Source of the DNA: a virus
Direction: 5' to 3' (one strand)
IMG/VR virus record: IMGVR_UViG_3300027759_000050
Span: 1-64,000 of that record
Length of the DNA stretch: 64,000 nt
Positions 907-25,467 of the stretch are shown one piece after another. Positions within the stretch are counted from its first letter, which is position 1. Every line of letters begins with the position of its first letter. Made by a program: the position numbers and the translations under genes. Below the pieces are notes generated by a model that did not search any database, was not told the DNA's origin, and saw only the letters and a program-made list of their open reading frames with translations.

Positions 907-921
907 ATATAGTAGACTAAA

Positions 922-1528: not shown

Positions 1529-1536
1529 TATTTATT
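1529..1536 (-). promoter_or_regulatory. Probable late promoter for gp19 (AATAAATA)
   Basis: The minus strand reads AATAAATA, one base from the T4 late consensus TATAAATA. Its last base is 22 bases ahead of the gp19 ATG, leaving room for a short leader with the TAGGAG ribosome site. It overlaps the end of gp18. Confidence 0.6.
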
Positions 1537-3304: not shown

Positions 3305-3357
3305 TTGTTTCTTCTCCTTGATTTTATTCTGTTAGTTGGCAGTCTATACCAATGAAT

Positions 3358-3365
3358 TATTTATG
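3358..3365 (-). promoter_or_regulatory. Probable late promoter for gp18 (CATAAATA)
   Basis: In the 72-base gap between gp17 and gp18 the minus strand reads CATAAATA, seven of eight bases of the T4 late promoter. It lies about 54 bases before the gp18 start codon. A separate promoter here would allow high sheath and tube expression independent of terminase. Confidence 0.6.
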
Positions 3366-3376
3366 AAACATTATTT

Positions 3377-6375: not shown

Positions 6376-7358
6376 AAATTTTCCTGTATAACAGTGGTAT
6401 ATGTATAATTTGAATTTGCGTTTGCTGTTGTTGGATTTGGTGTTATTGTTATTGTTGCATAATTTTTCTGTACAATATTATATGAATTAAACACCCATTT
6501 TGCATTCGATGTTCCACCAATAAGTGGTGAATTATTTGATACAAAATTCCCCGAGATGTTTGTTAGTGTCAATTGATTGTTCGCAGGCAACCAAGCAACA
6601 ACCTTACCGGATGCTGTTGAAAGGGAAGGATTCATTCCCTGATAAACTAATTCGTTGAGTAAGTAACTACCATTTCCACCAGAATTCATGTTGAAAACAA
6701 TATTTTGGTCTTCTGGAATATTATTGAGAATGTTTGTGATAGATGTTTTTATCAAACCAGCAGTAGATGTTGCACCAAATATGAAACCTTTGACAGTGAA
6801 ATTCAATGTCCAAATAACAGACCTAGTGTCTGATGTAAAATCACCTTCATATGTTACTTCATATTTTGTGTCGTTCAATATTACAGGCACTTCTTTGACT
6901 ATTCCCATTTCAGGAATCATATTAACTTTAATTGTATAGTCTGGTGCAAAGTATGGTAAAATATGTTCTATGATTTGATTACCATCTTCAATGTTTCTTA
7001 CATAAAGATATAAAGAAAAATCAAAATTGTAAGGAACAGGTACATATTGGGAAGATGTTGTATTTCCATTTTGGTTAAAATGTTTGATATTTGTCATCTG
7101 TTTTCTAGATGAATCATATTCTATGCCATTCAACTCATATGACATCCTAGGCAAAGTCATCATAACCTTTTTGTCAAGGTTTGGGTCACCTTGTATACGC
7201 ATAACATAAAGTTCTTTGGCTGCATAATCAATTGGAACAATGAATCTTTCTTGTTCCGTATCATCAGAATTATAACGAACCAATGTTATGTTATTGAACA
7301 AATCACCAAAGGCGACTGTTATTTTCCTTATCATTCTGTTGTAAAATGTACTAGCCAT
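6372..7358 (-). CDS. 15: Tail completion and sheath terminator protein gp15
   Basis: The 328-aa protein matches T4 gp15 (272 aa) in the N-terminal half: FYNRMIRKITVAFGDLFNNI, VPIDYAAKELYVMR, TLPRMSYELNGIEYD, and a central SLYLYVRNIEDGNQIIEHIL block followed by PYFAPDYTIKVNMIPEMG. The segment VIWTLNFTVKGFIFG also matches. The extra C-terminal part (about residues 230-328) is specific to this lineage. In T4, gp15 caps the last sheath ring and the tube and joins the tail to the neck. The start codon overlaps the gp14 stop (TAATG), and the stop overlaps the next start (ATGA). Confidence 0.92.
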   Translation of the reverse strand: MASTFYNRMIRKITVAFGDLFNNITLVRYNSDDTEQERFIVPIDYAAKELYVMRIQGDPNLDKKVMMTLPRMSYELNGIEYDSSRKQMTNIKHFNQNGNTTSSQYVPVPYNFDFSLYLYVRNIEDGNQIIEHILPYFAPDYTIKVNMIPEMGIVKEVPVILNDTKYEVTYEGDFTSDTRSVIWTLNFTVKGFIFGATSTAGLIKTSITNILNNIPEDQNIVFNMNSGGNGSYLLNELVYQGMNPSLSTASGKVVAWLPANNQLTLTNISGNFVSNNSPLIGGTSNAKWVFNSYNIVQKNYATITITPNPTTANANSNYTYTTVIQENL

Positions 7359-8260
7359 TATAATCCCCCAATCGGATTAGTTTCTGTAGTATTTACATAT
7401 GTTTCAGAATCGGTTTCAATTAACTTATTTGCATATGGTTCTAGATGACTTGGGTTCTCTAATGGATCAGTTGGTAAACCGTTGAAATAGTAATAAGCTT
7501 TACTATTCACACCGATAACGGGAGAAATATCATTTACCAAAAATTCACCCCAAATATTGGTAATTGATAGTATTCCTGTTGTTGTGGACCAAGAAGAAAT
7601 TGTACCTTTGGCGTGTGCATTTCCGAGTGTATTATCTATAGATTGATAAACTTCTTCTTTAATGATATATATTCCTAAACCTAAATTTTGATTCAAGTTC
7701 AGATGTAAGGTGTATGCGGAATCTGTAGACGCAATATCTATGTCTGCCATACCTGTAGAAATAACTTCTTGTGAGTATTTGAATTTTTCCATTTCTAGTT
7801 CATAGTAGTATGGATTTTTTCTTCCTAGGGTAAAACCGTCTTTATTTTGGTCAACATACTTAATCTCATACAACTCACCGCCGCCGTTTAGGAATGGAAC
7901 ATATACCAAATCACCCTCTAACGGTCTTAGATATGTTGTTTGCGGTGTTCTCTGATAAAAAGCTTTGCGAGAAACTAGAACGTGTACTTGGTTGCGAATC
8001 TCTAAACCAAATTTAGAAAAGAAATCTTTTTGACCTTCATGACCCATAACACTAGATAGATACATTTCAACAGGAAAAGCCGATGTGAATTTCTTTACAG
8101 GATCTTCACCATACAATAAATCTCTGGCAATTGCATTATTATTGGGAATATAATACGCATCAAACCCTTGAATCTTAATTGATTCTGAAATCAAATCATC
8201 AACGAGCCTTTGTTCGTTGTATTTGGCTTTATAGTTATTGAAATAATTACTTGTTGCCAT
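7358..8260 (-). CDS. 14: Neck protein gp14
   Basis: The 300-aa protein fits T4-like gp14 (256 aa) by position between gp13 and gp15 and by the N-terminal pattern: FNNYKAKYNEQRLVDDLISE, GFDAYYIPN, RDLLYGEDPVKKF, and then FSKFGLEIRNQVHVLVSRK and RPLEGDLVYVPF. These are the segments usually conserved in the family. gp14 attaches with gp13 to the filled head and makes the site for tail joining. A 60-residue C-terminal segment from about residue 210 resembles part of the gp15 insertion (SGKVVAWLP versus KGTISSWST), perhaps a shared small beta domain. Confidence 0.92.
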   Translation of the reverse strand: MATSNYFNNYKAKYNEQRLVDDLISESIKIQGFDAYYIPNNNAIARDLLYGEDPVKKFTSAFPVEMYLSSVMGHEGQKDFFSKFGLEIRNQVHVLVSRKAFYQRTPQTTYLRPLEGDLVYVPFLNGGGELYEIKYVDQNKDGFTLGRKNPYYYELEMEKFKYSQEVISTGMADIDIASTDSAYTLHLNLNQNLGLGIYIIKEEVYQSIDNTLGNAHAKGTISSWSTTTGILSITNIWGEFLVNDISPVIGVNSKAYYYFNGLPTDPLENPSHLEPYANKLIETDSETYVNTTETNPIGGL

Positions 8261-8261: not shown

Positions 8262-9035
8262 TTAGCTCATGAACCATTCTAGTGCGCCGCCGTAATTGTT
8301 TTCCATTTCATCATGCAGTTGTTTGATTTCTTCAACAGCTTCATCAAACACTTCTTTGCCGTTTAATGTTATTCCACCTGGAAGTTGAATGCCACCAAAT
8401 TTCTTCATGTTCTCACCCCAATTTTTCTTAATTAGGGCGGTAGCATAAAGTTTTAGGAAACGGTCTTGCCAAATATTGGGATATGATTCTGGGTTAATAC
8501 CACCATAAGCTTCAGCCACAACTATTGTACCAACAGGAGCTTCTTGGTCACCCCAAGCCCAATCGATATGTAGTCTTTGTGTTACTCTATTCCAACGAAT
8601 AGGAACTTCACCTGTGAACATTATCTCTAAGGAACGAAGATGTTGTTGAGTTAGAACATAATTGACGTAGGACGCTGAGGTGAAGTCATACAGTTCATTT
8701 AGGCGAAGTTGGTATCTCAAGTCAAACATGTTAACATTGGCCTGAGAATCATTCACTGGAAATATACGAGAAATGCCAACAATCTGTATCGCATTGTTGC
8801 TTTCATCCAAAACTCCTGCGGCTGACAAATACTTGTTATCAATATCTTCTTGAGTTACAGAATGAATCCAATAGAATTTTTGAGTACCATCAAAATGGTA
8901 ATCTTGCCAATATTGAATTGCATCGTCAAGCCTATCTTCAACTTGGTCATCATCCATATTGATGTCAATAACAGGCGCACCTAATCTACGAAGGCAGTAA
9001 TCTTTGAATTCTTGTCTATTGTTAATTGTTGGCAT
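8262..9035 (-). CDS. 13: Neck protein gp13
   Basis: The 257-aa product matches T4-like gp13 (309 aa). The N-terminus has FKDYCLRRLGAPVIDINM and an acidic DDQVEDRLDDAIQYWQDYH helix; further on are FDLRYQLRLNELYDF and RLHIDWAWGDQ, typical of the family. gp13 and gp14 form the neck that seals the head after packaging. An AGGAG site stands before the ATG, preceded by a late-promoter-like octamer. It is the first gene after the giant adhesin gene and heads the neck-terminase group. Confidence 0.93.
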   Translation of the reverse strand: MPTINNRQEFKDYCLRRLGAPVIDINMDDDQVEDRLDDAIQYWQDYHFDGTQKFYWIHSVTQEDIDNKYLSAAGVLDESNNAIQIVGISRIFPVNDSQANVNMFDLRYQLRLNELYDFTSASYVNYVLTQQHLRSLEIMFTGEVPIRWNRVTQRLHIDWAWGDQEAPVGTIVVAEAYGGINPESYPNIWQDRFLKLYATALIKKNWGENMKKFGGIQLPGGITLNGKEVFDEAVEEIKQLHDEMENNYGGALEWFMS

Positions 9036-9055
9036 GAGAAACTCCTATTATCTTC

Positions 9056-9063
9056 TATTTATC
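9056..9063 (-). promoter_or_regulatory. Probable late promoter for gp13 (GATAAATA)
   Basis: Minus strand GATAAATA followed by GAAGATAATAGGAG, ending 20 bases before the gp13 ATG. The same layout (octamer, AAGATA, TAGGA, start codon) is found before the gene at 20874. It opens the neck-terminase-sheath group. Confidence 0.65.
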
Positions 9064-9080
9064 TAACATAAAATGTATCA

Positions 9081-12000
9081 TTAAAAGAAAGCAAAGAAGT
9101 TGCCACTATAAGTGACACCTGAAGGAGCACCGGAAAAAACCCATCCTGAATTGTTTGAGACATTAACGGAGTATGCACCAGCATACCATGAAGCACCTCC
9201 GGTTGCAATAGAATCTTGAATGTACAAATCATCGACATTAACTATACCACTGGATTTGGATAATGTTGCAGCAATTCCTGGTATTGTTGAATTGATGTAA
9301 ACCTTGAAAGGTTGGAAAGATGAAGTAACAACAACACCAACATTGGTTACAGTCAAAGCACCGGAACTAGTGTCTGTAAGGAAAGATGCACTATTTGGTG
9401 TATTCAATAACAATGAAGTTTGTGTACCAGTTACTGCAACTATATTTGTTCCAGATGATTGTGTGGTGTCCAATGGATTCATCGGAACAGTGAAATTACC
9501 TGTATATACACCAACTCCTTTAGTTATGCGAATATTGGAAAAAGTCGCACTAAGAAAACCTGTACCGCCTGCACCAGATGAGTTGTGTGCTATAGCTGGA
9601 GTACCACAAAGATAAGTGTTTGTATCTGTATATGTTGTTCCAACTTGAACACCATCCACAAACATTCTTGTGGATGATCCACTTTTTGAAATTGCTAAAT
9701 GATACCAAGTGTCAGTTGTCAATGTTCTTGTTGGATTTGCACCTCCGCCACCTAAAACTGCAACATTATTAACCATAAAAGATGGTTGTCCACTTGACAT
9801 ATAAAAATATGGTGCTACAGAAGTAGCAGCAGTTCTTGCATCATATATTGTTCCATCAGTTAATGAATTTAATCTACACCAACATTCAAATGTAAATTCG
9901 CCTGTACCAAATGTGAGCGTTGCCGGAGCCGCAGGCAATGTCAAATACTGTGATGTACCATTAAAAGTTACGGAGCCTAATGGATATGCACCTGCTGGCC
10001 CACCATTGTTGAGACCTACACCTGATATATTAAAATTACTAACTGTTTGAGTTGTACCCGATTGAAATGTTACATTCATTCCTTTATTTGCAGATGTGGT
10101 AATATCATAAAAAGTATTATTACCTCTTATGGTTAGTGTTCCACCACCACCTTGATTTAATGTTCCGTAAGATCCTCCACCTCCTGAAAATATTTTTGAA
10201 TTATTGCTCGTCAAGCTTATTGTAGAAGAAACGGTAAGATTAGGATTTATCTGTATTAATGGAGGCGCGAATGGCACAAAAGTTACGCCGCCAACATTTT
10301 CTGTACGCTTAGGCAATGCACTACTATCCGCTAAGTAAGTCAACGGAGAACTCATTGTCATTAATACAACTGTTTGTGCTCCATAAATTCCTCTTATATT
10401 TGTACTAGGGCTTTGTGTTACAGTTAATACTGTATTTGGTGGCGTAAAATTTCCATAATATACAGCATTATTTGAAGTATATCTAAAATTAGTCAAATAA
10501 CCAACCCAACAACTTGGTGAACTTCTATCAGAACCCAACATTAACATATTGCTTGCATTATTAAATGTATCTGAACCAGCTAAGTAAGAACCAACATTTT
10601 TTCCATTAAACCAAAGTGTTACTCTATTTGTTGGTGTTGAAGTTCTTGTAACTGCGTAATGGTTCCATCTATTAATTAATGGAACATAAGGAGTTTCAAC
10701 AGAACCGGTTTCTAATCTAATACTAGAACCATACCAAAGTTGCCAATGGCCGTTTTGCATATTAATAACACTTCTGAGAGAACCTGACGAAGAAGTACCC
10801 GTATCTCCCCAAGAAAAATGATGTTGCGCGGTTGTGTTACTTGTACCATAAGCCCACACCTCAAGTGTAAAATCATTAAGGTCTGCGAATGGAGCACTAG
10901 GAATACTAACAAGATTTGCTGTTGTTGGATTGGAATTAAATATACTACCTCCAACTCCATTAGCTTCCCAAGATGCAGCAAGTGAATTAATAGTATTTCC
11001 ATTAACAACTATATCTGAACCTGTAATTGTTCTTGTAATTGTACCTGTAGTATATACATTCTTGCTTGTTAAAGGTCCGGAAAGAGTTAATGAACCACTT
11101 GAAAATGTTATTGTATTTGCTGTTGTAGCATCCAATGAAGCGGTTGAGGTGGTATTAATATATAATGTGGATAGTGGTTTATTATTTGTTTCGATAACTT
11201 TGTCGGTACCAAAAACATTTGCAGAAAAATCTGTATAAGTTCCTGTAGCTGATAAAGTTAAATTGCCTTGCACAGATACAGTATTAGCTGGTATCAATGA
11301 ACTACTTCCTGTAAAATCTAAATTATTAAAATAACTATTAAGACCAAACGTAGGTGAACTCGAACCGCCGTTAATAGACAAATCTACTAATTTTCCACCA
11401 ATTGGTAATGAAGCTTCAAACGGTGATGAAGTTGATGATGATGTTCCGACATTTGTTATTGTAAAATTATTTAAACTATTATCTACTAAATAAGTGCTAG
11501 CGCCTGGAACTGTATTTAATAACAAGGTTGTCTGTGATGCAAGTATAGAATTAACATTGGTACTTGCACTTTGAGAAGTTGTTAGTGGGCTGGTGGGAAC
11601 TGTGAAATTTCCAACATATGCACCAACGCCTTTAACTATACGCACATTAGAAAAATATGCAAATAGGGTTCCATCACCTGCACCACCCGATGAATTGTGT
11701 CCTATTGCTGGTATAGCACCTGATACATTATAATTAGTTGTATCCGTAAATTCAAGGTCTTTTATACCATTCAGAAATATTCTTGTTGTAGTTCCAGTTC
11801 TACAAAGCGCCACATGATACCAATTAGTTCTAAATAACTTTGTTGAAGCTGTAGTAAATGTACCATTAATTAAAATATTAAGTCTATTTCCGCCAACACC
11901 AAAATAAGGTCCAGGTGAAGTGGAGCCAGTTCTTAAATCAACAACGGCACCATCACCAGGCGCCACAAGACGAATATAAGCTTCAATTGTAAAATCACCT

Positions 12001-15000
12001 GTGCCAAATACAAATCCAGCATTAGCTGGAGCTGTTACATATTGACCTGCAGAAATAGCTGAAATACTACCGGTAGTAGTGGTGCTTATGGTATTTGCAC
12101 CATTATATGAACGAGCAACAGACATATTGCTAGTGAATCCACCTAGGCCAGTCCAAGTGAAATTATTGGAATTACTTATATCTAATGCAGTTGTTCCAGC
12201 GGTTGAATGTATAAGATTGATGTTACCTGCACTTGTACTACCAAATGCAATTGAACGGACATTACTATTACTTGAACTGAATGCACCTACACTTAATGTT
12301 ACTCCGTCCGCTAATGTTATTGTACCTGTGGTGAAAGTATATGTACTGGTTGCTCCTAAAGATCCTGTGTTGTTGAATGTTACCGAACCTGAGGTGTGTG
12401 TAAATATTGGTATTGAACCAAGAGTTACTGAACTACCAAAATTAATTGAACCTGAATTCAATATAAGACTAGTGCTAGCACTAAATGTACCAGGACCAAT
12501 AACACTAATTGTAGATCCATTAACTGTAAATGTTGTACAATTACAGTCTATAATTGTAATTGCAAATGCACCTGCTGTAATTGTTGATGTTGTTTTTCCG
12601 TTATATGTTAATGTTCCTGAAGCAAATAAGATTAAAATTAATGCAGTATATGTACCACCGGATGATAATGTTAAACCTTTTATATTTAATGTTGTTGCAG
12701 GTAATGTAAATGATGTGGTGCCAAAATCAATTGTACCAAACCAACTACCGGATGTTATTGTTGCAACACCGGCCCCTGTAGTAAATGTAAGATTTCGCGC
12801 ACTGGCTGCAAACCCTGCGGCCGATCCAAAAGTAAATGTCCTAGCAACTGACATGTCATTTACAGTGAATCCACCTGGACCTGTAGTCGTAAGTGAATTC
12901 GTATCAGCCATACTCAATACTGTTGTGGCCGCGGTGGTATGTGTGAGATTGATGTTACCTGCACTTGCACTACCAAATGCAATTGTTCTGGTAGAACTAT
13001 TAGATGAACTGAATATGCCTGTAGTTAATGTTACCCCATTGGCTAGTGTCAGTGTACCCGCCGATAGTGTGTAAGTACCTGTGGTTGTTAGTGCGTATGA
13101 TTGATTCAATGTAACAGTACCAGCACTATGAGTAAATAACGGTGTTGCACCTAATGTGGCGGTTCCTCCATATGTAAATGATCCTGATGTTAGAACAAAA
13201 CTAACTGATGCATTAATCGTACCACTTGTAAAGTTAAATGTTGGACCATTGATGGTAAAAGTTGTACATGATATAGTTCCAATATTACTTAAAGTGCCGG
13301 CGGTATATGTTGCTGTACTTGAACAAGTTAAGTTAAATGTGGCAAAATCAATAGTACCTAATGTTTGTGTCCAAGTTGTCACACCTAATGCAGCAGCTAA
13401 AGTAACAGTACCTGCGGTATTAACTGTAAGTGCTGCAATAGTTTTACCGTTAGGTGTAATAGTTCCGGTTCCAATTGCATTGATACTTAATCCAGTATAA
13501 GTTCCAGTAGCTGACAATGTAAAACCTTTTACATTTAATGTTGTTGCAGGTACTGCAAATGATGTGGTGCCAAAATCAATTGTACCAAACCAACCTCCTG
13601 AAGTTATTGTTGCAATACTAGCCCCTGTAGTAAATGTAAGATTGGGTGCTTGGAATACGGCGCCAGCTGCGCTACCGCAAGTCAATGTTTTTGTAGCTGA
13701 CATTGCGGCCACAGTAAAACCACCCGGACCTGTAGGCGTAAAAGAATTCAAATCAGCCATACTCAATACTGTTGTGGCCGCGGTGGTATGTGTGAGATTA
13801 ATATTGCCTGCACTTGCACTACCAAATGCAATTGTTCGGACATTACTATTAGATGAACTGAATATACCTGTTGATAGTGTAACACCACTACTTATATTCA
13901 ATGTGCCTATTGTAAAAGTATAAGTGGAAGTTACCGGCAATGTACATGTTGCTGTTATTGTTACCGAACCTGCGGTATGTACAAATGACGGTGTTGTAAT
14001 TGTACCACCACTGTATGTAAATGAACCAGAGGTTACTGTAAAACTGGTGGAAGCTGATATTGTACCAGATGATAATGTAAATGTAGAACCCGCAGAATGT
14101 GTCCAAGTAGTACATGATATAGTTCCAATATTACTTAAAGTGCCAGCTGTATATGTTGCTGCACCTGAACTAGTTAAGTTAAATGTGGCAAAATTGATAG
14201 TACCGGCTGTCTGTACATACGATGTACATCCAAACGCCGCAGCCAATGTAACTGTACCTGCGGTATTAACTGTGAGTGCTGCAATAGTTTTACCGTTAGG
14301 TGTGATGGTTCCAGTACCAACAGCATTGACACCTAAAGCAGTAAAAGTTCCACCAGATGATAGTGTTAAAGCATTTAAGTTTACTGTTGTAGATGCTATG
14401 GTGCTTGTAGTGGTACCAAAACTTAATGTATCGAACCAGCTACCTGAACCAAATGTGAGCACGGCAGAACCGGTTCCTGTAAATGATAAATTCGGTGAGT
14501 TTGTTGTTGTGCCACCCGTGGTGCCCCATACAAATGTGCGGGTAACAGATGCATCAGAAATAAATGTTTGAGTACCAGTAAAGGTATAATTGGTAAGATC
14601 GGGTACATTTAATATAAATTGTGCAGCTGTACTATGATTCAATGTCATCGAGTATATGTTCCATGCAATACTTCGGACATTAGTATTATTTGAAATAAAT
14701 GAAGCAGTTGTTAAATTCGCACCTAATGTTATTGTGCCTGCTGTGAATGTATAAACACAAGTTGCAGGTAATGTCCATGATACCGTTGTTGTTACCGAAC
14801 CTGCGGTATGTACAAATGACGGTGTTGTAATTGTACCACCACTGTATGTAAATGAACCAGAGGTTACTGTAAAACTGGTGGAAGCTGATATTGTACCAGA
14901 TGATAGTGTAAATGTAGCTGAAGCTGCATGAGTCCAAGTAGTACAACTTATAGTTCCAATATTACTTAAAGTGCCAGCTGTATATGTTGCTGCACCTGAA

Positions 15001-17396
15001 CCTGTTAAGTTAAATGTGGCAAAATTAATAGTACCAGCTGTTTGAGTATATGTTGTACAACCTAAAGCCGCAGCCAATGTAACTGTACCTGCGGTATTAA
15101 CTGTGAGTGCTGCAATAGTTTTACCGTTAGGTGTGATGGTTCCAGTACCAACAGCATTCATACCTAAAGAAGTGTAGGTTCCAGTAGCTGATAATGTCAA
15201 ACTATTCAAGTTTAACACCGTTGCTGGCACAGCAAATGCAGTAGTACCAAAACTTAATGTATTGAACCAACTTGCAGTTGTGAAAGTTGCTATTGCTGTG
15301 CCGCTACCAGTTAATGATAAATTCGGTGAGTTTGTTGTTGTACCACCCGTTGTACCAAATACATATGTTCTAGTGACCGCCGCATCACTAATGAATGATT
15401 GTGTTCCAGTAAAAGTGTAACTAGTAACAATAGCCATGTTCAATACAGTTGTTGCAGCTGTACTATGATTCAATGTAATGGTATAAGTGCTCCATGCAAT
15501 AGAACGAATATTGGCATTTGTAGAACTAAAAGCACCAGTTGATAAATTACCACCTAATGTTATTGTACCTGCTGTAAATGTATAGGTGCAAGTTGCTGCT
15601 AATGTCCATGTTGCTGTTGTTGTTACTGTACCGGCAGTATGTACAAAAGATGGTGTTGTAATTGTTCCACCACTATATGTAAATGAACCAGAGGTTACTG
15701 TAAAACTGGTAGAAGCAGATATTGTACCAGATGATAAAACAAATGTAGCTAAAGCTGCATGGGTCCATGTTGTACAAGATATAGTTCCAATATTACTTAA
15801 TGTTCCAGCTGTATATGTTGCTGCACCTGAACTAGTTAAGTTAAATGTGGCAAAATTGATAGTACCAGCTGTTTGAGTATATGTTGTGCATCCAAAGGCG
15901 GCCGCCAATGTAACTGTACCAGCACCATTATTTACAGTAAATGCTGCTATAGTTTTACCGTTAGGTGTAATGGTTCCAGTACCAACAGCATTCATACCTA
16001 AAGAAGTAAAAGTTCCACCACTCGATAATGTTAAACCATTCAAGTTTAATGTGGTCGCAGCCATAGCAAAAACTGTTGTACCAAAACTCAATGTATTGAA
16101 CCAACTAGCGGTTGTTATGGTAGCGATTGCAGTACCCGTACCTGTTAAAGAAAGGTTTGGTGCATTGGTTGTTGTACCGCCGGTTGTACCAAAAGTAAAT
16201 GTTCTGGTAATTGAAGCATCAGCTGAAAATCCACCCGCACCTGTAAAAGTAAATCCAGTTGCATTAGCAAAATTCAATACAGTTGTTAAAGCTGTTGTAT
16301 GTGTTAGTAATATATTACCTACACCAAACAAAATAGAACGTGTAGCTGTACCTGTGGAAGTAAATATACCAGTATTTAAATTGAAATCATTGAGTGCTAA
16401 TGTACCACTTGTTATTGTTGTGGTTGCATTAGTAACTAAAGTTAATGCATCACCAAGTGTAGTTGTACCTGATGTACTATTAATGTTTAAAGCTGCTATA
16501 GTCTTAGCAACGGAAACTATAGTACCTGTACCAACCATGTTAATAGTTAATCCAGTATATGTTCCACCAGTCGCAAGTGTTAAATTTCCAGCTATATTTA
16601 ATGTCGCTGCTGGTGGTGTGGTACTACTGCCTGTAAAAACTAAACTCTTAAACCAACTGGCTGTGGTGAGTGTTGATACCGCAGCACCACTTGGAATAAA
16701 TAAATTGGCTGTAGTTGTTGCTGAACCTCCAGTTGTGCCAATAGTATATGTTCTAGTAATTGAAGCATCAGCTTTAAAACCACCCGTACCTGAAGAAGAA
16801 AACAAGGTACTATTCGCCATACTCACGACAACGGATCCCACAGTTGTGGTAATCAAATTAATAAAATTTGCGCCAAATGCAACAGACCTTGCGCTGGCCA
16901 CATTTGAACTGAATATACCAGTGGACCAATCAAATCCATTAAGTGTCAATGCACCGTTGGTCAATGTAGTGGTGAGTGTTGCACCAGTTACTAATGCGCT
17001 ACCTAAACTCCAACCACCACCTACACCGTTGAATGTGATTGCACCATTTATCGTTGTACCATTGGTCGTAATTGTTTTGCCGGTGGTTGTGGCGTTGAAT
17101 GTTATTGCACCGGTACTTGTCCAAACAGTTCCTGCAACCAATGACATAGAACCGGTAACGGCCAAGGTGGGTGTTGTGCCTGTTGCGAAAGTTACGACAC
17201 CTGCACTAACTGTAATATCTAAACACAGTAAAGCACCTGTCATTGTGACGGTGTATGTACCTGCTTGATTAAAGAAAACGGAATCTGCGGCTGTAGGTAC
17301 AGATGCACCACCACCTCCACCCGAAGTCGCAGACCAGTTGGTGGTTAATGTGGTATTCCAAGTACCTGCGCCGCCTACCCAATATCTATCTGCCAT
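9081..17396 (-). CDS. Giant repetitive virion adhesin with LamG-like domains (2771 aa)
   Basis: One uninterrupted frame of 2771 residues, rich in threonine, serine, glycine and alanine. The N-terminus (MADRYWVGGAGTWNTT, then NWSATSGG and PTAADSVFF) is a start often seen in repetitive phage and bacterial surface proteins. Residues 70-1750 are beta-strand-like repeats, suggesting a beta-solenoid or stacked beta-sandwich shaft; part of them repeat with a 277-aa unit. Three LamG/concanavalin-like domains can be recognised at roughly 1790-1945, 2165-2325 and 2490-2645, each with F-T-x-E-x-W/Y, W-x-H-x-A and FSN-x-R or L-T-N-F-R elements. These domains typically bind sugars. It lies between fibre genes and the neck gene gp13. 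Location in the virion and receptor role are inference. Confidence 0.9.
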   Translation of the reverse strand: MADRYWVGGAGTWNTTLTTNWSATSGGGGGASVPTAADSVFFNQAGTYTVTMTGALLCLDITVSAGVVTFATGTTPTLAVTGSMSLVAGTVWTSTGAITFNATTTGKTITTNGTTINGAITFNGVGGGWSLGSALVTGATLTTTLTNGALTLNGFDWSTGIFSSNVASARSVAFGANFINLITTTVGSVVVSMANSTLFSSSGTGGFKADASITRTYTIGTTGGSATTTANLFIPSGAAVSTLTTASWFKSLVFTGSSTTPPAATLNIAGNLTLATGGTYTGLTINMVGTGTIVSVAKTIAALNINSTSGTTTLGDALTLVTNATTTITSGTLALNDFNLNTGIFTSTGTATRSILFGVGNILLTHTTALTTVLNFANATGFTFTGAGGFSADASITRTFTFGTTGGTTTNAPNLSLTGTGTAIATITTASWFNTLSFGTTVFAMAATTLNLNGLTLSSGGTFTSLGMNAVGTGTITPNGKTIAAFTVNNGAGTVTLAAAFGCTTYTQTAGTINFATFNLTSSGAATYTAGTLSNIGTISCTTWTHAALATFVLSSGTISASTSFTVTSGSFTYSGGTITTPSFVHTAGTVTTTATWTLAATCTYTFTAGTITLGGNLSTGAFSSTNANIRSIAWSTYTITLNHSTAATTVLNMAIVTSYTFTGTQSFISDAAVTRTYVFGTTGGTTTNSPNLSLTGSGTAIATFTTASWFNTLSFGTTAFAVPATVLNLNSLTLSATGTYTSLGMNAVGTGTITPNGKTIAALTVNTAGTVTLAAALGCTTYTQTAGTINFATFNLTGSGAATYTAGTLSNIGTISCTTWTHAASATFTLSSGTISASTSFTVTSGSFTYSGGTITTPSFVHTAGSVTTTVSWTLPATCVYTFTAGTITLGANLTTASFISNNTNVRSIAWNIYSMTLNHSTAAQFILNVPDLTNYTFTGTQTFISDASVTRTFVWGTTGGTTTNSPNLSFTGTGSAVLTFGSGSWFDTLSFGTTTSTIASTTVNLNALTLSSGGTFTALGVNAVGTGTITPNGKTIAALTVNTAGTVTLAAAFGCTSYVQTAGTINFATFNLTSSGAATYTAGTLSNIGTISCTTWTHSAGSTFTLSSGTISASTSFTVTSGSFTYSGGTITTPSFVHTAGSVTITATCTLPVTSTYTFTIGTLNISSGVTLSTGIFSSSNSNVRTIAFGSASAGNINLTHTTAATTVLSMADLNSFTPTGPGGFTVAAMSATKTLTCGSAAGAVFQAPNLTFTTGASIATITSGGWFGTIDFGTTSFAVPATTLNVKGFTLSATGTYTGLSINAIGTGTITPNGKTIAALTVNTAGTVTLAAALGVTTWTQTLGTIDFATFNLTCSSTATYTAGTLSNIGTISCTTFTINGPTFNFTSGTINASVSFVLTSGSFTYGGTATLGATPLFTHSAGTVTLNQSYALTTTGTYTLSAGTLTLANGVTLTTGIFSSSNSSTRTIAFGSASAGNINLTHTTAATTVLSMADTNSLTTTGPGGFTVNDMSVARTFTFGSAAGFAASARNLTFTTGAGVATITSGSWFGTIDFGTTSFTLPATTLNIKGLTLSSGGTYTALILILFASGTLTYNGKTTSTITAGAFAITIIDCNCTTFTVNGSTISVIGPGTFSASTSLILNSGSINFGSSVTLGSIPIFTHTSGSVTFNNTGSLGATSTYTFTTGTITLADGVTLSVGAFSSSNSNVRSIAFGSTSAGNINLIHSTAGTTALDISNSNNFTWTGLGGFTSNMSVARSYNGANTISTTTTGSISAISAGQYVTAPANAGFVFGTGDFTIEAYIRLVAPGDGAVVDLRTGSTSPGPYFGVGGNRLNILINGTFTTASTKLFRTNWYHVALCRTGTTTRIFLNGIKDLEFTDTTNYNVSGAIPAIGHNSSGGAGDGTLFAYFSNVRIVKGVGAYVGNFTVPTSPLTTSQSASTNVNSILASQTTLLLNTVPGASTYLVDNSLNNFTITNVGTSSSTSSPFEASLPIGGKLVDLSINGGSSSPTFGLNSYFNNLDFTGSSSLIPANTVSVQGNLTLSATGTYTDFSANVFGTDKVIETNNKPLSTLYINTTSTASLDATTANTITFSSGSLTLSGPLTSKNVYTTGTITRTITGSDIVVNGNTINSLAASWEANGVGGSIFNSNPTTANLVSIPSAPFADLNDFTLEVWAYGTSNTTAQHHFSWGDTGTSSSGSLRSVINMQNGHWQLWYGSSIRLETGSVETPYVPLINRWNHYAVTRTSTPTNRVTLWFNGKNVGSYLAGSDTFNNASNMLMLGSDRSSPSCWVGYLTNFRYTSNNAVYYGNFTPPNTVLTVTQSPSTNIRGIYGAQTVVLMTMSSPLTYLADSSALPKRTENVGGVTFVPFAPPLIQINPNLTVSSTISLTSNNSKIFSGGGGSYGTLNQGGGGTLTIRGNNTFYDITTSANKGMNVTFQSGTTQTVSNFNISGVGLNNGGPAGAYPLGSVTFNGTSQYLTLPAAPATLTFGTGEFTFECWCRLNSLTDGTIYDARTAATSVAPYFYMSSGQPSFMVNNVAVLGGGGANPTRTLTTDTWYHLAISKSGSSTRMFVDGVQVGTTYTDTNTYLCGTPAIAHNSSGAGGTGFLSATFSNIRITKGVGVYTGNFTVPMNPLDTTQSSGTNIVAVTGTQTSLLLNTPNSASFLTDTSSGALTVTNVGVVVTSSFQPFKVYINSTIPGIAATLSKSSGIVNVDDLYIQDSIATGGASWYAGAYSVNVSNNSGWVFSGAPSGVTYSGNFFAFF
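13275..15900 (-). repeat. Tandem long repeats inside the giant adhesin gene (831-846 bp unit)
   Basis: The marker AGTTCCAATATTACTTAA occurs on the plus strand at 13275, 14121, 14952 and 15783, giving spacings of 846, 831 and 831 bases (282, 277 and 277 codons). A stretch of 115 bases at 13960-14074 is identical to 14791-14905, and the matching site in the next unit begins at 15622, again 831 bases on. Units are in frame and encode the repeated phrase LSNIGTISCTTWTH. Confidence 0.9.
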
Positions 17397-17402
17397 TAAT
17401 TA

Positions 17403-17630
17403 TTACTCAGTTGGTGTTGTTTCTGAAATAATTTCTTCTGTTGGCAATGAATTAACAATAACCAACCAATTATCAAATCTTTCTTGTTGCATTGTTGAAA
17501 TTTGTTCAGGTGTTAATGCATCATATTCTTCTTGTTTAAACCACAGAGCATCTCTATATGTTTTATCTCCGTCTGTCTTTTCAAAAATTATTTGGACTTG
17601 TCCGTCAATTTGATTTATAATATCTTCCAT
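17403..17630 (-). CDS. Small protein of unknown function beside the giant adhesin
   Basis: A 75-aa acidic protein, starting MEDIINQIDGQVQIIF and containing DALWFKQEEYDALT and RFDNWLVIVNSLP. Small proteins with a DALxF...RFxNW pattern are often found next to tail fibre genes in T4-like phages of aquatic bacteria, from memory; no function is known to me. It lies in a tight series (22 bases after the 964-aa fibre, 6 bases before the giant adhesin), so it may be a companion or assembly factor of one of these fibres. The start is ATG with an AAGG-type site in front. Confidence 0.75.
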   Translation of the reverse strand: MEDIINQIDGQVQIIFEKTDGDKTYRDALWFKQEEYDALTPEQISTMQQERFDNWLVIVNSLPTEEIISETTPTE

Positions 17631-17651: not shown

Positions 17652-20546
17652 TTAGAAACCAAAATTCTTAGCTATTATGTGCCATTTTGTGGTATCTGAA
17701 TTATATATGAAACCCATATAATCAGTCTTAGTTGAACCTGAAGAAACTGTTGGTAAAGTTAAATCAGTTGAACCGAGAAAAACTGGATTCCAAGAAAATG
17801 TTTGTATATTTGTTGATTTAAGTTTAAGAATAATTTTTTGGCCATCAGTCAATGTACCCGAAACAGTATTAATTGTTAATGTTCCAGCAGTTTGTGTATT
17901 TATCTGATAAGCAATATCTGTAGTATCGCCATCCATAGTAATTGAAGTTCCATCGGTTATTGATACCACTCTGGTTGGTGTTGAAGTATTAGCTTGTAAG
18001 AATGCTGCATTAGCAAATAGTGCTCCAGAATTGGCTGCATCAAAAGAAGAATTAGCTTTAATAAAAGCACCGTTAGCGAATGTGCCAGCTGAATTGGCTT
18101 TATCAAAAGCAGCATTAGCAAATAAACCATCTGAATTGGCTTTAAGATAGGAAGCATTGGCAAATAATGCTCCGGAATTGGCTGTATCAAAAGCAGAATT
18201 AGCAAATAAACCATCCGAATTGGCTTTAAGATAAGAAGCATTCGCAAATAATGCTCCGGAATTGGCTTTATCGAATCCTGAATTTGCTGTAACAAAAGCA
18301 CCGTTAGCAAATATGCCTGATGAATTGGCTGTATCAAAAGCTCCATTAGCAAAGATACCAGCTGAATTGGCTTTATCAAATCCAGAATTGGCTTTAACAA
18401 AAGCACCATTAGCAAAGATACCAGCTGAATTGGCTTTATCAAAAGCAGAATTAGCAAATAAACCATTCGAATTGGCTTTAAGATAGGAAGCATTGGCAAA
18501 TAAAGCTGCTGAGTTAGCTGTATCAAAAGCAGCATTAGAAAAGACACTAGTTACAGCTGCTGTAGTTTGTACTGTTGAGTCTGAAAATGTTATGCCTGCT
18601 GATGTATTTGCAAAAAATCCATTTGCGTATATTGCACTAGCACCAGTGATACTTCCAGAAGTACCTAATGTGTTAATCGAGTCAACATAAAATACACCAG
18701 AAACTGTTAAGTCAGCGTTGGTTACTATTGAAGCTGTGTTTTGTAAAGATGTATTGGCCTTGTCAAAAGCACTGTTAGCAAATACACCAGCTGAATTAGC
18801 TTTATCGAATCCTGAATTTGCCTTAACAAAAGCCCCATTAGCAAATATACCAGCTGAATTGGCTTTATCGAATCCTGAATTTGCTGTAACAAAAGCCCCA
18901 TTAGCAAATACACCAGCTGAATTGGCCTTGTCAAAAGCACTGTTAGCAAATACACCAGCTGAATTAGCTTTATCAAACGCGCCGTTGGCTGTTTCTCTGG
19001 CGTAAGTGTCTATTGAAGAAGATACTAATGTATTAGCTAAAGCAAAAGCACCATTAGCAAAGATACCAGCTGAGTTAGCTTTATCGAAAGCTGCATTAGC
19101 CCAAACACCAGAACTACCTCCAGTATTTGCTTGCAAGAATGCTGCATTGGCAAATAATGCTCCAGAATTTGCTGTATCGAATCCAGAGTTTGCTGTAAGA
19201 AAAGAACCATTGGCGAAAGTACCAGCTGAATTGGCTTTATCGAATCCCGAATTTGCCTTAACAAAAGCCCCATTAGCAAATATACCAGCTGAATTGGCTT
19301 TATCGAATCCAGAGTTTGCTGTAAGAAAAGAACCATTGGCGAAAGTACCAGCTGAATTGGCTTTATCAAAAGCACCATTAGCAAAGATACCAGCTGAGTT
19401 AGCTTTATCGAAAGCACTGTTAGCAAATAAAGCTGCTGAGTTAGCTGTATCAAAAGCAGCATTGGCCCAAAGACTAGCACTTCCTCCAGTATTTGCCTGA
19501 AGGAAAGCCGCATTAGCAAATAAAGCTGCTGAGTTAGCTGTATCAAATCCAGAATTTGCTGTTAAAAAAGCTCCATTAGCAAATAAAGCTGCTGAGTTAG
19601 CTTTATCAAATCCAGAGTTTGCTTTAGTGAAGGCACCATTAGCAAATAAAGCTGCTGAGTTAGCTGCAACAAAAGCTCCATTAGCAAATAAAGCTGCTGA
19701 GTTAGCTGTATCAAAAGCAGCATTGGCCCAAAGACTAGCACTTCCTCCAGTATTTGCTTGCAAGAATGCTGCATTGGCAAATAAAGCTGCTGAGTTAGCT
19801 GTATCAAAAGCAGCATTAGAAAAGACACTAGTTACAGCTGCTGTAGTTTGTACTGTTGAGTCTGAAAATGTTATGCCTGCTGATGTATTTGCAATAAAAC
19901 TATTTGCATATATTAAGCTGGCGCCAGTAATACTTCCGTAGGATCCTGTTGTGTTAATCGAGTCAACATAAAATACACCAGAAACTGTTAAGTCAGCGTT
20001 GGTTACTATTGAAGCTGTGTTTTGTAAAGATGTATTGGCCAAATCAAAAGCACTATTGGCAAATACACCATCTGAGTTAGCTTTATCAAAAGCAGCATTG
20101 GCAAAAGTGCCAGCAGAGTTGGCTTTATCGAAACTGGAATTAGCTTTTACAAAAGCAGCATTAGCAAATATACCATCAGAATTTGCCTTAACAAAAGCAC
20201 CATTTGCAAATATACCAGCTGAATTGGCTTTATCGAAACTGGAGTTTGCTGTAATGAAGGCACCATTGGCCGTTTCTCTAGCATAATTATCTACAGAAGA
20301 TGTTACCAATGTATTAGCTAAATCGAAAGCTGCATTGGCAAACAATGATCCAGAATTGGCTGTATCAAAAGCAGCATTAGCAAATATGCCATCGGAATTT
20401 GCCTTAACAAAAGCACCATTTGCAAATATACCAGCTGAATTGGCTTTATCAAATCCTGAATTTGCTGTAATGAAGGCACCGTTAGCAAATAATCCAGCTG
20501 TGTTTGCTTCTTTATTTTGTTGATTGCCAATATAAGTAAATGTCAT
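17652..20546 (-). CDS. Long tail fibre with heptad-repeat shaft (964 aa)
   Basis: Most of the protein consists of seven-residue units of the type ANSAGIF, ANGAFVK and ANSGFDK, in long unbroken register, which suggests a trimeric helical shaft. The shaft is interrupted twice by nearly the same module of about 90 residues (TNADLTVSGVFYVDSINT ... SAGITFSDSTVQTTAAV); the two copies are 427 residues apart. The last 110 residues (from about 855) are non-repetitive: VVSITDGTSITMDGDTTD through WNPVFLGSTDLTLP to WHIIAKNFGF, and form a likely tip domain. The N-terminus is short (MTFTYIGNQQNKE). It is 1 base after the 108-aa gene. Role as a tail fibre is inferred from the repeats and context. Confidence 0.88.
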   Translation of the reverse strand: MTFTYIGNQQNKEANTAGLFANGAFITANSGFDKANSAGIFANGAFVKANSDGIFANAAFDTANSGSLFANAAFDLANTLVTSSVDNYARETANGAFITANSSFDKANSAGIFANGAFVKANSDGIFANAAFVKANSSFDKANSAGTFANAAFDKANSDGVFANSAFDLANTSLQNTASIVTNADLTVSGVFYVDSINTTGSYGSITGASLIYANSFIANTSAGITFSDSTVQTTAAVTSVFSNAAFDTANSAALFANAAFLQANTGGSASLWANAAFDTANSAALFANGAFVAANSAALFANGAFTKANSGFDKANSAALFANGAFLTANSGFDTANSAALFANAAFLQANTGGSASLWANAAFDTANSAALFANSAFDKANSAGIFANGAFDKANSAGTFANGSFLTANSGFDKANSAGIFANGAFVKANSGFDKANSAGTFANGSFLTANSGFDTANSGALFANAAFLQANTGGSSGVWANAAFDKANSAGIFANGAFALANTLVSSSIDTYARETANGAFDKANSAGVFANSAFDKANSAGVFANGAFVTANSGFDKANSAGIFANGAFVKANSGFDKANSAGVFANSAFDKANTSLQNTASIVTNADLTVSGVFYVDSINTLGTSGSITGASAIYANGFFANTSAGITFSDSTVQTTAAVTSVFSNAAFDTANSAALFANASYLKANSNGLFANSAFDKANSAGIFANGAFVKANSGFDKANSAGIFANGAFDTANSSGIFANGAFVTANSGFDKANSGALFANASYLKANSDGLFANSAFDTANSGALFANASYLKANSDGLFANAAFDKANSAGTFANGAFIKANSSFDAANSGALFANAAFLQANTSTPTRVVSITDGTSITMDGDTTDIAYQINTQTAGTLTINTVSGTLTDGQKIILKLKSTNIQTFSWNPVFLGSTDLTLPTVSSGSTKTDYMGFIYNSDTTKWHIIAKNFGF
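18040..20500 (-). repeat. 21-bp heptad repeat array in the 964-aa fibre, with a 1281-bp internal duplication
   Basis: The coding sequence repeats in steps of 21 bases (7 codons) with variants of GCNAAY-TCN. A non-heptad module near 18541-18759 recurs at 19822-20040 with an offset of exactly 1281 bases (427 codons), including 90 identical bases at 18670-18759 and 19951-20040. This points to duplication of a long shaft segment. Confidence 0.88.
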
Positions 20547-20904: not shown

Positions 20905-23900
20905 TTAACCTAAAGCTATAGAATAGGCCAACGCATCTGAAATTGCTGTGTTTGCTTGATTAAAAGCTCCATTAGCAAAAACACCAGCTGATACCGCTGT
21001 TGAGTTTGCTGTGTTTGCTTGAATGAAAGCTGAATTTGCAAAAACACCAGCTGATACCGCTGTTGAGTTTGCTGTGTTTGCTTGGTTAAAAGCACCATTG
21101 GCAAAAACACCAGCTGATACCGCTGTTGAGTTTGCTGTGTTTGCTTGAATGAAAGCTGAATTTGCAAAAATTGCTGTGTTATTCTGTGCATCAAAAGCAC
21201 TATTGGCTTGTAAGAAAGCTGAATTCGCTGTGGTGTAGGAGTCAATTAGATTGTTTGACCATACAGTGTCATAGTTAGTAGAACTGTTTTTGATTAGGAC
21301 TTGTCCTACTGTTCCTCCTGAAGACACGCCGTTACCTGTAGCGCCTGTTGCACCGGTAGCACCAGTCGGTCCTCTTGGTCCTTGTGGTCCTTGGTAAGAT
21401 TGTTCAAGTGCAATGTAATCAATACTTGTTTGATGTGCAGCATTTCCTGCGTTACTGTGATATAATCTTAATTGTACTTTGGATAATCCACTAACATAGG
21501 CCGTTTCATCAATTACTTCTAAAGCGAATGCATAATATGAACCAAGACCAGTATATGTTCCAATATTGTCCCAAGCACTTGTTACAAAATTATACAGTTG
21601 AACATATATTGTATGTCCTGAAGCTTGAGTGTAATTGATATTCATTACAACTCTATTGAATTTCACAACATTAATAAAGTCAAAATCGATATACCAAGCA
21701 GGTGCTGAACCTGTACCGTCTGTTAGAACATAAACACCATTTGTAGCTGTATAGTCACCAAATACTTGTGTACTCCACAAATTACCAGAAACATATACGC
21801 CGTTTGTTTGTATTAATGTGTTTGCTAAATAAGTAACGGTGTTTGGTGTTGGTAGGTCAATAAAACTAATATTACCTGTTCCATCTGTTGTCAATAGTTG
21901 ACCAGTGTTACCACCGTAGATGTGAACATTACTTACATTACCCAATGCAACATTTGCGGATGATGTTGATATTAAGTTACCTTTAAATACAATGTTTCTC
22001 TGCGTATTGATACGAAGAACTTCATCTTCCACATTCAATGAACCTGCACCACCTGTAGCAAATACAATATCGTTATGGATACTACCAATGATAGTGTTAC
22101 CACCATTAGTAACTGTATTACCATGAACGAAGAAATAACCATCATTTGGTTTGATTAAGGTAAATGGATCACCATAGTTATATGTACTGCTTCCTAAACC
22201 TATATCCAAATAACCTTCAAGAGAAGTTCCGTTATCTGCGGTTATGAACATATCAAATGAAGCATTTGGTGCTGTATTAATATTTTGCATATTAATACTG
22301 GTATAACCATCATAATTGGAAGTTAGTTGTTGTACAGTTTGTGGTTGTACCAAATATCCTGTTGGAACACCAGCATATAACGCATTGAAACCATTTGCAG
22401 CATAACCAAAGAATTGACCTGTGTTACCTGTAATTTGATAAGATGTTGCATTACCGGTGAAGGTAACATTACCTTGCACCGTAAAATTTTGTTGTATTAC
22501 CACATCACCTGATATTGTTCCACCAGTTAATGGCAATGCATTGTTAGCTTTTACAAAAGCGCCATTTGCAAATAGTCCAGCTGATGTAGCTGAAGAATTA
22601 GCCGTATTCGCTTGTGTGAATGCAGTAGTGGTGTATGCAAATAAATCAACACCGTTACTGGTTATAGAATAACCAGCAATATTTGCAATCAAAGTTCCTA
22701 CATTGGATGATGTTGCGGTTCCAGGTGTTATTACATTTGTTGATGGGTCTTGAGTTAACCCTTTAAATAACAAGAAATTATTTGATCCGGCTTGTCTAGC
22801 AAGACCATGATATGTTGGTGCTGTAGAACCTGATGTTAATGCAGTTCCATAAAATCCAATATCAAGTGTATCACTGTATATGTTATTATTTGCTAATTTA
22901 ATTAATGAGTCGGTTGTTTGAACAACTGTTGTATTAATTGATGTGGTTGTTCCATTGATAAACAAATTTCCAGTAACAGTTACATCACCGGTGATTGTTC
23001 CTCCAGTTTGAACATTGAGTGAATTATTCGCTCTACTAAAAGCACCATTAGCAAATATGCCAGATGAATTTGCTGTTATAAAAGCTCCATTAGCAAATAA
23101 AGCTGCTGAGTTAGCTTTATCGAATCCAGAATTTGCTTTAACGAAGGTTCCATTAGCAAATATACCAGCTGAATTAGCTGTATCAAAAGCCCCATTAGCA
23201 AAAATACCAGCTGAGTTAGCTGTATCAAATCCAGAATTTGCTGTTATAAAAGCTCCATTAGCAAATAAAGCTGCTGAGTTAGCTTTATCGAATCCAGAAT
23301 TTGCTTTAACGAAGGCTCCATTTGAGAAGGTACCAGCTGAGTTAGCTTTATCGAAACCTGAGTTTGCTTTGATGAAGGCGCCATTAGCAAATGTACCAGA
23401 TGAATTTGCTGTATTAAATCCAGAATTTGCTGTTTCAAAAGCACCATTGGCAAATAGTGCAGCTGTGTTAGCGGTATCGAAAGCACTAACAACAAATTCA
23501 CTAAATGTATTGGCTAAATCAAAAGCACCATTGGCGAATAGTGCAGCTGAGTTAGCCGCATCAAATCCTGAGTTTGCTTTGATAAAAGCAGCATTAGCAA
23601 ATAAACCATCCGAATTGGCTTTAAGATAAGAAGCATTCGCAAATAATGCTCCGGAATTGGCTTTAACAAAAGCTCCATTAGCAAAATTACCGGATGAGTT
23701 AGCTTTAAGATAAGAAGAATTGGCCGTATCGAAAGCACTATTAGCAAATACACCAGCTGAGTTAGCAGATTCAAAACCTGCATTAGCCGTTTCAAAAGCA
23801 CCATTAGCCACATCGAAAGCACCAGTGGAATAAATGTTGATTGAATTGGCAGTTTCAAAAGCACTGTTAGCAAAAATACCTGCTGAATTGGCTGCACCAA

Positions 23901-25467
23901 AACTTGAATTGGCTTTAACAAAAGCACCATTGGCAAATGTACCAGAAGAATTGGCCTTGTCGAATCCAGAATTTGCTTTTACAAAAGATGCATTAGCAAA
24001 GATGCCATCGGAATTGGCTTTAAGATAAGCTGCATTGGCCGTTTCTCTAGCGTAAGTGTCCACTAAAGATGAAGATAGTGTATTTGCTAATTCGAAAGCA
24101 CCATTTGCGAACAATGCGGCCGAATTAGCTTTATCGAATCCTGAATTTGCTGTAACAAAAGCACCGTTAGCAAATAGTCCAGCTGAATTGGCTTTAAGAA
24201 AAGCTCCATTGGCCGTTTCTCTAGCATAACTATCTACAGAAGATGTTACCAATGTATTAGCTAAATCAAAAGCCGCATTGGCTTTAACGAAAGCTCCGTT
24301 AGCAAAATTACCGGATGAATTGGCTGTGTTGAAACCTGAATTTGCTTTAATAAAAGCACCATTAGCAAATGTGCCAGCTGAATTGGCTGTATCATAACCT
24401 GAATTCGCTGTAACGAAAGCACCATTTGCAAAGGTTCCAGCTGAATTGGCTTTATCGAATCCAGAATTTGCTGTAACAAAAGCTGCATTGGCAAATACAC
24501 CAGCTGAGTTAGCTTTATCAAATCCTGAGTTTGCTGTAACAAAAGCTGCATTAGCAAAAATTGCTGTGGTGTTTTGTGCGTCAAAAGATGCATTAGCTTG
24601 ATTATAAGAACCATTTGCACTACCAACAATGTCAATCGAGTCTCCTGTATTCGCAGTAATAATCAATGCACCACTAGTATTACTTAAAACGATACCGTCA
24701 ACATCAATAGAGCCTGGACCAACGAATAAAGATTTGAAAGGCTTCGCTTTTGAACCAAGAAAATAAGTATTTGCTGTTGTCGGAATAATATTTCCAGTCA
24801 TCAACAAATCACCCTGCATTGTATCGCCGGCTCTATTTAATTTTGTGTTTGAACTGATGAAAGCTGCTTGAGCTAAAATATTTGCACTGTTTGCTTTATT
24901 GAAAGCTGCATTAGCTTGAGAGTAGGCTAAATTGGCTTGTGGAAATACAACAGTTGATGAGTAGGTGTAAACTGAATTTGAATTTGCAAAAATGGTGTTA
25001 GCATATGCATAGACTGAATTAACATTTGATGTTGCGGAATTTGCTTGAAGATACGCTGCATTAGCTCTTTCTCTAGCATAATTATCTACAGAAGATGTTA
25101 CCAATGTATTAGCTAAATCGAAAGCTGCATTAGCAAATATTCCAGTGGTATTTTGTGCAGCAAAAGCTGCATTAGCTACTGCTCTCGCTTCAACGTCAAC
25201 CCCAGAATTGGAAATTGTATTAGCTAAAGCGTAAGCTGCATTAGTTTTATCATAAACTTCCGTTGTATAGACTAATGCAGTATTTGCATTACTTTCTATT
25301 TCAGTTTGTAGAATTGCAACATTTGAAGCAAGTTCTTGTTCCAATCTAATTGTATTTGCGGTTTGGTCGGGACCTGTAAAAGTCGCAATCGATTGTACAG
25401 CAGCAGGAGAACCAGGACCAACCCTTACACTAATTTGATTTACTGGTTGTACTATAATATTTGGCAT
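20905..25467 (-). CDS. Long modular tail fibre with heptad shaft, beta-sandwich and collagen-like segments (1520 aa)
   Basis: Modules in order: an N-terminal segment (about 1-250); LNRAGDTMQGDLLMTG and FLGSKAKPFKSLFVGPG, common in fibres of T4-like marine phages; a heptad shaft (about 300-812, ANSAGTF / ANGAFVK units); a module with DSLIKLANNN and DIGFYG (about 836-930); a module with KPNDGYFFVHGNT (about 1076-1140); a beta-sandwich, carbohydrate-binding-like stretch (about 1225-1352); collagen-like triplets GPQGPRGPTGATGATG (about 1354-1379); and a final heptad tail. Two of the modules are shared with other fibres in the window. The start codon overlaps the stop of the 122-aa gene (TAATG). 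It is surely a virion fibre by composition; which receptor it binds is unknown. Confidence 0.9.
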   Translation of the reverse strand: MPNIIVQPVNQISVRVGPGSPAAVQSIATFTGPDQTANTIRLEQELASNVAILQTEIESNANTALVYTTEVYDKTNAAYALANTISNSGVDVEARAVANAAFAAQNTTGIFANAAFDLANTLVTSSVDNYARERANAAYLQANSATSNVNSVYAYANTIFANSNSVYTYSSTVVFPQANLAYSQANAAFNKANSANILAQAAFISSNTKLNRAGDTMQGDLLMTGNIIPTTANTYFLGSKAKPFKSLFVGPGSIDVDGIVLSNTSGALIITANTGDSIDIVGSANGSYNQANASFDAQNTTAIFANAAFVTANSGFDKANSAGVFANAAFVTANSGFDKANSAGTFANGAFVTANSGYDTANSAGTFANGAFIKANSGFNTANSSGNFANGAFVKANAAFDLANTLVTSSVDSYARETANGAFLKANSAGLFANGAFVTANSGFDKANSAALFANGAFELANTLSSSLVDTYARETANAAYLKANSDGIFANASFVKANSGFDKANSSGTFANGAFVKANSSFGAANSAGIFANSAFETANSINIYSTGAFDVANGAFETANAGFESANSAGVFANSAFDTANSSYLKANSSGNFANGAFVKANSGALFANASYLKANSDGLFANAAFIKANSGFDAANSAALFANGAFDLANTFSEFVVSAFDTANTAALFANGAFETANSGFNTANSSGTFANGAFIKANSGFDKANSAGTFSNGAFVKANSGFDKANSAALFANGAFITANSGFDTANSAGIFANGAFDTANSAGIFANGTFVKANSGFDKANSAALFANGAFITANSSGIFANGAFSRANNSLNVQTGGTITGDVTVTGNLFINGTTTSINTTVVQTTDSLIKLANNNIYSDTLDIGFYGTALTSGSTAPTYHGLARQAGSNNFLLFKGLTQDPSTNVITPGTATSSNVGTLIANIAGYSITSNGVDLFAYTTTAFTQANTANSSATSAGLFANGAFVKANNALPLTGGTISGDVVIQQNFTVQGNVTFTGNATSYQITGNTGQFFGYAANGFNALYAGVPTGYLVQPQTVQQLTSNYDGYTSINMQNINTAPNASFDMFITADNGTSLEGYLDIGLGSSTYNYGDPFTLIKPNDGYFFVHGNTVTNGGNTIIGSIHNDIVFATGGAGSLNVEDEVLRINTQRNIVFKGNLISTSSANVALGNVSNVHIYGGNTGQLLTTDGTGNISFIDLPTPNTVTYLANTLIQTNGVYVSGNLWSTQVFGDYTATNGVYVLTDGTGSAPAWYIDFDFINVVKFNRVVMNINYTQASGHTIYVQLYNFVTSAWDNIGTYTGLGSYYAFALEVIDETAYVSGLSKVQLRLYHSNAGNAAHQTSIDYIALEQSYQGPQGPRGPTGATGATGATGNGVSSGGTVGQVLIKNSSTNYDTVWSNNLIDSYTTANSAFLQANSAFDAQNNTAIFANSAFIQANTANSTAVSAGVFANGAFNQANTANSTAVSAGVFANSAFIQANTANSTAVSAGVFANGAFNQANTAISDALAYSIALG
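23030..24570 (-). repeat. 21-bp heptad repeat array in the 1520-aa fibre
   Basis: About 1.5 kb of coding sequence made of 7-codon units in which ANS or ANG recurs at position 1-3 and phenylalanine at position 5 or 7. It is of the same type as the array in the 964-aa fibre at 18040-20500, with many near-identical stretches between the two genes. Confidence 0.85.

Follow-up and report, generated by a model that had tools for sequence, protein, structure and literature searches.

The closest functional precedent for the gene described here is found in Enterococcus phage EfV12-phi1. Its large putative tail fibre gene repeatedly acquired in-frame tandem duplications of 1.8 kb while the phage coevolved with its host; these lie upstream of a predicted carbohydrate-binding domain, and their copy number varied between evolving populations (PMC6365445). 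Both genes carry kilobase-scale in-frame tandem copies within a large putative host-recognition gene. The likeness considered here is one of architecture, and the EfV12-phi1 copies arose under laboratory observation, whereas those of the present gene are natural, diverged and mosaic. Domain duplications in the tail fibre adhesin of T4 reportedly expanded host range, according to the title of a 1996 paper by Tetart and coworkers; there too the duplication lies within a T4-type adhesin, but the domains are small and the protein is a different one. In crAss-like phages, a tandem array of BACON domains in a tail-associated protein was built by internal duplication (PMC6949934). One such lineage retains a conserved domain order, as do two relatives of the present array (L094 and L103), but the domain considered here is different, its units are longer and modular (A + B) and the gene shows intragenic mosaicism. 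Finally, the host recognition cluster described for pelagimyophages and cyanomyophages is hypervariable and occupies the interval from VrlC to the neck gene gp14; tail fibres and structural proteins with a concanavalin A domain are encoded in the structural region (PMC7029224). The position of this cluster fits that of the present gene; long tandem arrays and exchange between units are not described in the portion of that source considered here. Literature searches on arrays of repeats in giant or beta-helical fibres of phages yielded no description of the array-protein family. The gene adds a large, apparently undescribed modular repeat-protein family to the few sequence-readable cases of phage adhesin recombination.

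The window analysed here (64,000 nucleotides) comes from a virus record of 160,679 bp, a metagenomic contig that may be incomplete. It contains a 2,771-residue gene, P0001. We consider it likely that the tandem units of this gene have been remodelled by homologous recombination with one another, and that its product is a giant host-recognition protein of a T4-like myovirus, probably carried on the virion. The gene and its two downstream neighbours are as follows.

9081-17396, minus strand: host-recognition protein gene P0001, 2,771 aa (open frame; PF13385; phrog_3545, E 5.5e-53)
8262-9035, minus strand: gp13-like head-tail adaptor (Ad2) gene, directly downstream of the array gene (phrog_211, E 1.7e-39)
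7358-8260, minus strand: gp14-like head closure (Hc2) gene, the syntenic anchor (phrog_460, E 4.3e-53)

According to PHROGs, the genes downstream of P0001 in its reading direction are the gp13-like and gp14-like genes followed by those for a sheath stabiliser, terminase subunits, sheath and tube, and the upstream side holds more large genes together with baseplate wedge genes. This is the neighbourhood of a contractile-tail T4-type virion, and the source phage is a T4-like myovirus. Its best annotated terminase matches are to Synechococcus phages at ∼56%, a level that does not by itself establish the host. The location of the array gene just upstream of gp13/gp14-like neck genes fits the hypervariable host-recognition position of T4-like cyanomyophages and pelagimyophages.

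The P0001 reading frame runs without interruption over all 2,771 codons. An N-terminal segment (MADRYWVGG...) is followed by the repeat array, by three LamG domains and by a C-terminus that ends in ...GNFFAFF. The array extends over ∼12117-17075 and consists of four full units (831, 831, 846 and 849 bp) and three partial ones. Each full unit comprises a module A of ∼105 residues and a module B of ∼175 residues, with module A missing from short units.

16509-17075, minus strand: U1, degenerate first unit, residues 108-296 (unit alignment and unit HMM)
15960-16508, minus strand: U2, short unit that lacks module A (the first ∼105 positions), residues 297-479 (unit alignment and unit HMM)
15129-15959, minus strand: U3, full unit of 831 bp, residues 480-756 (repeat spacing and unit alignment)
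14298-15128, minus strand: U4, full unit of 831 bp, residues 757-1033 (repeat spacing and unit alignment)
14789-14905, minus strand: 117-bp partner block in U4 (self-match)
13452-14297, minus strand: U5, full unit of 846 bp, mosaic, residues 1034-1315 (max-chi2 and module trees)
13958-14074, minus strand: 117-bp block in U5, identical to the block in U4 (self-match)
12603-13451, minus strand: U6, full unit of 849 bp, residues 1316-1598 (repeat spacing and unit alignment)
12117-12602, minus strand: U7, degenerate last unit, residues 1599-1760 (unit alignment and unit HMM)
11500-12060, minus strand: first LamG (concanavalin A-like) domain, limits approximate (PF13385, position by sequence motifs)
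10340-10930, minus strand: second LamG domain, limits approximate (PF13385, position by sequence motifs)
9525-9962, minus strand: third LamG domain, residues 2479-2624 (best PF13385 stretch)

The plus strand opposite the array gene also contains open frames at 15886-17268 (460 aa) and 12079-13074 (331 aa), which are probably a by-product of the codon usage of the array gene rather than genes.

An 831-bp periodicity had been noted in this adhesin gene and is borne out by the self-comparison. Over offsets of 20-4499 in the region 9000-17500, an offset of 831 gives the strongest self-match (778 sixty-base windows with at least 80% identity), followed by 1662 and 849, and the start-to-start spacings of the repeat families are 849, 846, 831, 831 and 834. 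The block quoted as identical at this offset is present, with a length of 117 bp rather than 115 bp. The span originally assigned to the array, 13275-15900, does contain real repeat but falls short of it at both ends.

The fixed 831 spacing and recent identity need to be kept apart. Under independent codon choice at shared residues, the expected synonymous codon identity is ∼0.44. The 831 offset of U3/U4 and U4/U5 persists without indels where synonymous sites are close to this background, as in module B of U4 and U5 (39/74 = 0.53; locally 12/28 = 0.43). The constant spacing thus reflects a fixed unit length and not recency, and this length is set by the unit itself, probably by its fold.

A model of U3-U4 obtained with AlphaFold, using eight aligned two-unit stretches, is all beta with a pLDDT of 90.0 and a pTM of 0.80, from which the repeat units are predicted to be beta-rich and, probably, solenoid-like. 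A fold search of the PDB with this model returned nothing significant, its weak matches being mostly to beta-helical proteins. Against viral models, the best match was an uncharacterised phage protein (E 2.4e-18) and the significant matches were mainly to uncharacterised phage proteins. Sequence comparison with the PDB linked the LamG region to an S-layer-domain protein and otherwise gave a single doubtful match. Hydrophobic autocorrelation of the array showed weak peaks only (2, 21, 5 and 33 residues) and we therefore claim no coil length. The LamG assignment is clear, with PF13385 (Laminin_G_3) recognizing three stretches of P0001 (E 2.4e-31, 109.4 bits against a curated cut-off of 27.6). 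Beyond these domains, the C-terminal region is conserved across array proteins (9081-9215 in the window; L094, L103, L122, L144, L145, L149, L150 and L155), and the family ends in a phenylalanine-rich tail (e.g. GNFFAFF, FFLFF or FMAFF) that is possibly an assembly or attachment signal.

U5 is a mosaic, with a first part that resembles U4 and a remainder that for the most part resembles U6, and this assignment is well supported. At informative sites the max-chi2 value is 91.0, which was equalled in 0/2000 shuffles, the left part of U5 being U4-like at 0.86 of these sites and the right part at 0.25. At synonymous sites alone the value is 25.6, again with 0/2000 shuffles as large; because the shuffling treats neighbouring sites as independent, both values are indications and not exact probabilities. 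The best breakpoint, ∼13870-13960, lies beside the 117-bp identical block, which ends about where the U4-like portion of U5 ends. The module trees show the same switch of partner: in the module A tree U3, U4 and U5 group together (support 93) with U6 outside, and in the module B tree the pairs are U3 + U4 (support 99) and U5 + U6 (support 95).

Among adjacent full units, the identity at synonymous codons is 0.71 for U3/U4, 0.75 for U4/U5 and 0.70 for U5/U6. It rises to 87/97 = 0.90 in module A of U4/U5 and is 80/114 = 0.70 in module B of U5/U6. Orthologous A modules of L094 and L103, which served as a control, mostly have values of 0.54-0.61 (0.75 in one 41-column stretch) and their orthologous B modules have values of 0.44-0.60. 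The change of partner within U5, together with this patchy elevation, establishes recombination among units as well supported and patchy along the array. The recent recombination that had been proposed is accordingly real and fairly recent in patches, namely module A of U4/U5 and the U5 mosaic, but elsewhere synonymous identity is at background. Background divergence outside the block had been named as an observation that would speak against the proposal; it was found in part, but within a pattern that shows mosaic recombination and not its absence. Identity at the DNA level does not extend over hundreds of bases as first stated, since no exact match exceeds 117 bp and this one sits within ∼300 bp of near-identity.

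The gp14-like protein served as an anchor for locating relatives that share this gene order. The terminases of the syntenic relatives L122, L088, L103 and L101 are 94-99% identical to that of the window, and the protein encoded at the array locus, where it has not been replaced, shares just 30-50% identity with P0001 over parts of its length, such that the locus in these phages is hypervariable with conserved flanks next to gp13/gp14. The combination of near-identical terminases and very different arrays makes a good natural system for examining a possible influence of array length or module content on host attachment. A unit search gave no match in the L088 and L101 records, four matches in L122, nine in L094 and eight in L103, the last two being cut by contig ends. 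In L006 (record G001, ∼4800-26900 of a 38.6-kb contig), which was found through protein similarity and not through the syntenic anchor, a single open frame of 7,358 codons contains ∼28 unit matches. Most units of L094 and L103 pair one to one, so that arrays can stay stable while drifting. The window array differs in that the closest units found for its full units U3-U6 are within their own gene.

Unit number, which according to the original suggestion may vary in the population, differs among relatives at 75-84% identity and beyond; L150 and L151 (75-84% identical) are one short unit apart. In contrast, contigs that are at least 99.97% identical have equal unit numbers wherever they can be overlaid, as found in six near-identical sets (L149/L152/L153, L145/L146, L147/L148, L139/L140, L091/L122 and L074/L075). 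This agreement is weak evidence of stability, as several of these contigs may be one phage resampled. A near-identity DNA search with the array gene gave no match in annotated phages, and an exact 30-mer of the identical block was found in none of the viral contigs searched, so that these searches gave no close strain for comparison.

Other histories could produce repeats of this kind. The units might descend from old duplications that have stayed similar through codon preference and through purifying selection on a beta-repeat fold, recent recombination playing no part. The length constraint that this account calls for is real, as the 831 period is maintained without indels where synonymous sites are near background, and the units of L094 and L103 have indeed remained orthologous. 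Selection of this sort does not, however, account for a nearest partner of U5 that switches along its length even when synonymous sites alone are considered, or for a synonymous identity in module A of U4/U5 that is well above most orthologous A modules of the relatives. Nor does codon preference explain the identical block: given the shared amino acids and the codon usage of this gene, its 38 whole codons would match by independent codon choice with a probability of ∼1e-16, and the block is therefore not due to chance. We regard old duplication without exchange as very unlikely. Slightly less improbable, although still unlikely, is a mosaic assembled mainly from units imported from other phages and not by exchange inside the gene. 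The hypervariability of the locus among phages with nearly identical terminases speaks for import, as do unit trees that mix genomes; against it, the closest units found for U3-U6 lie in the same gene, with module A of U3-U5 92-94% identical within it and at most ∼70-75% identical to any unit outside.

The least probable of the alternatives is that the array is an assembly artefact, either chimeric or collapsed, which arose when short reads from a mixed population were joined. The record is itself a contig from a metagenome, many relative contigs terminate inside the array gene and the switch in U5 adjoins the 117-bp block, all of which would be consistent with a faulty join. Yet the frame stays open through 2,771 codons, arrays of this kind are found in many contigs, and nearly identical contigs concur even when they stem from different metagenome records. 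Moreover, two exact copies allow only one linear order, and a mis-join between them would be expected to delete a unit rather than to make the observed pattern. The assembly process may nevertheless have left its mark in another way. Short-read assemblers work with k up to ∼127, and longer identical repeats would be broken or collapsed. The longest exact self-repeats in the arrays checked are 125 bp (L139/L140), 120 bp (L161) and 117 bp (window), and the absence of any above 125 bp in these arrays resembles such a limit, which suggests that identical repeats above a maximum set by the assembler go unseen. Given this limit and the contigs that end in the gene, unit numbers and identity tracts in such data are probably lower bounds, and viral collections based on short reads probably contain arrays of this kind in truncated or broken form.

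Under the favoured reading of exchange between units of the same gene, homologous recombination, by unequal crossing-over or non-reciprocal conversion, would homogenize, re-assort, add and remove units in frame. The exchange may proceed by the phage's own RecA/UvsX-like pathway; a RecA-family gene is present in the record (126059-126802), as expected for a T4-like phage. Both the enzyme and the kind of exchange are putative assignments, and a single genome does not separate crossing-over from conversion in the case of U5. The array would form an extended shaft in a protein that is likely to sit on the virion, as suggested by its LamG domains and gene position. The three LamG lectin-like domains, which are nearer the C-terminus, probably do the binding, and array length or module content may alter attachment. 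Recombination within an attachment-protein gene is a known remodelling route of such viruses, here encountered in a little-studied family. A diversity-generating retroelement was considered as a source of variation and discarded, as PF00078 finds no reverse transcriptase in the 160,679-bp (possibly incomplete) record.

More tentatively, the host-recognition gene of this phage group could serve as a modular ruler driven by recombination. Gain, loss and re-assortment of A and B modules, in a virion module that otherwise hardly changes, would then give proteins of several hundred to more than 7,000 residues. Array length itself would be an evolving trait that short-read assemblies systematically undercount. 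We consider this extended proposal doubtful.

Repeats of other kinds are present in large genes elsewhere in the window. The genes at 17652-20546 (964 aa) and 20905-25467 (1,520 aa) contain many 21/42/63-nt repeats that encode motifs such as FANGAFxxANSA and represent a second, different type of repeat-built virion gene. The gene at 28202-32173 (1,323 aa) contains tandem repeats of 213 nt (2.7 copies) and 165 nt (4.2 copies), located at 29182-29764 and 30810-31498, with copies that are ∼83% alike in each case.
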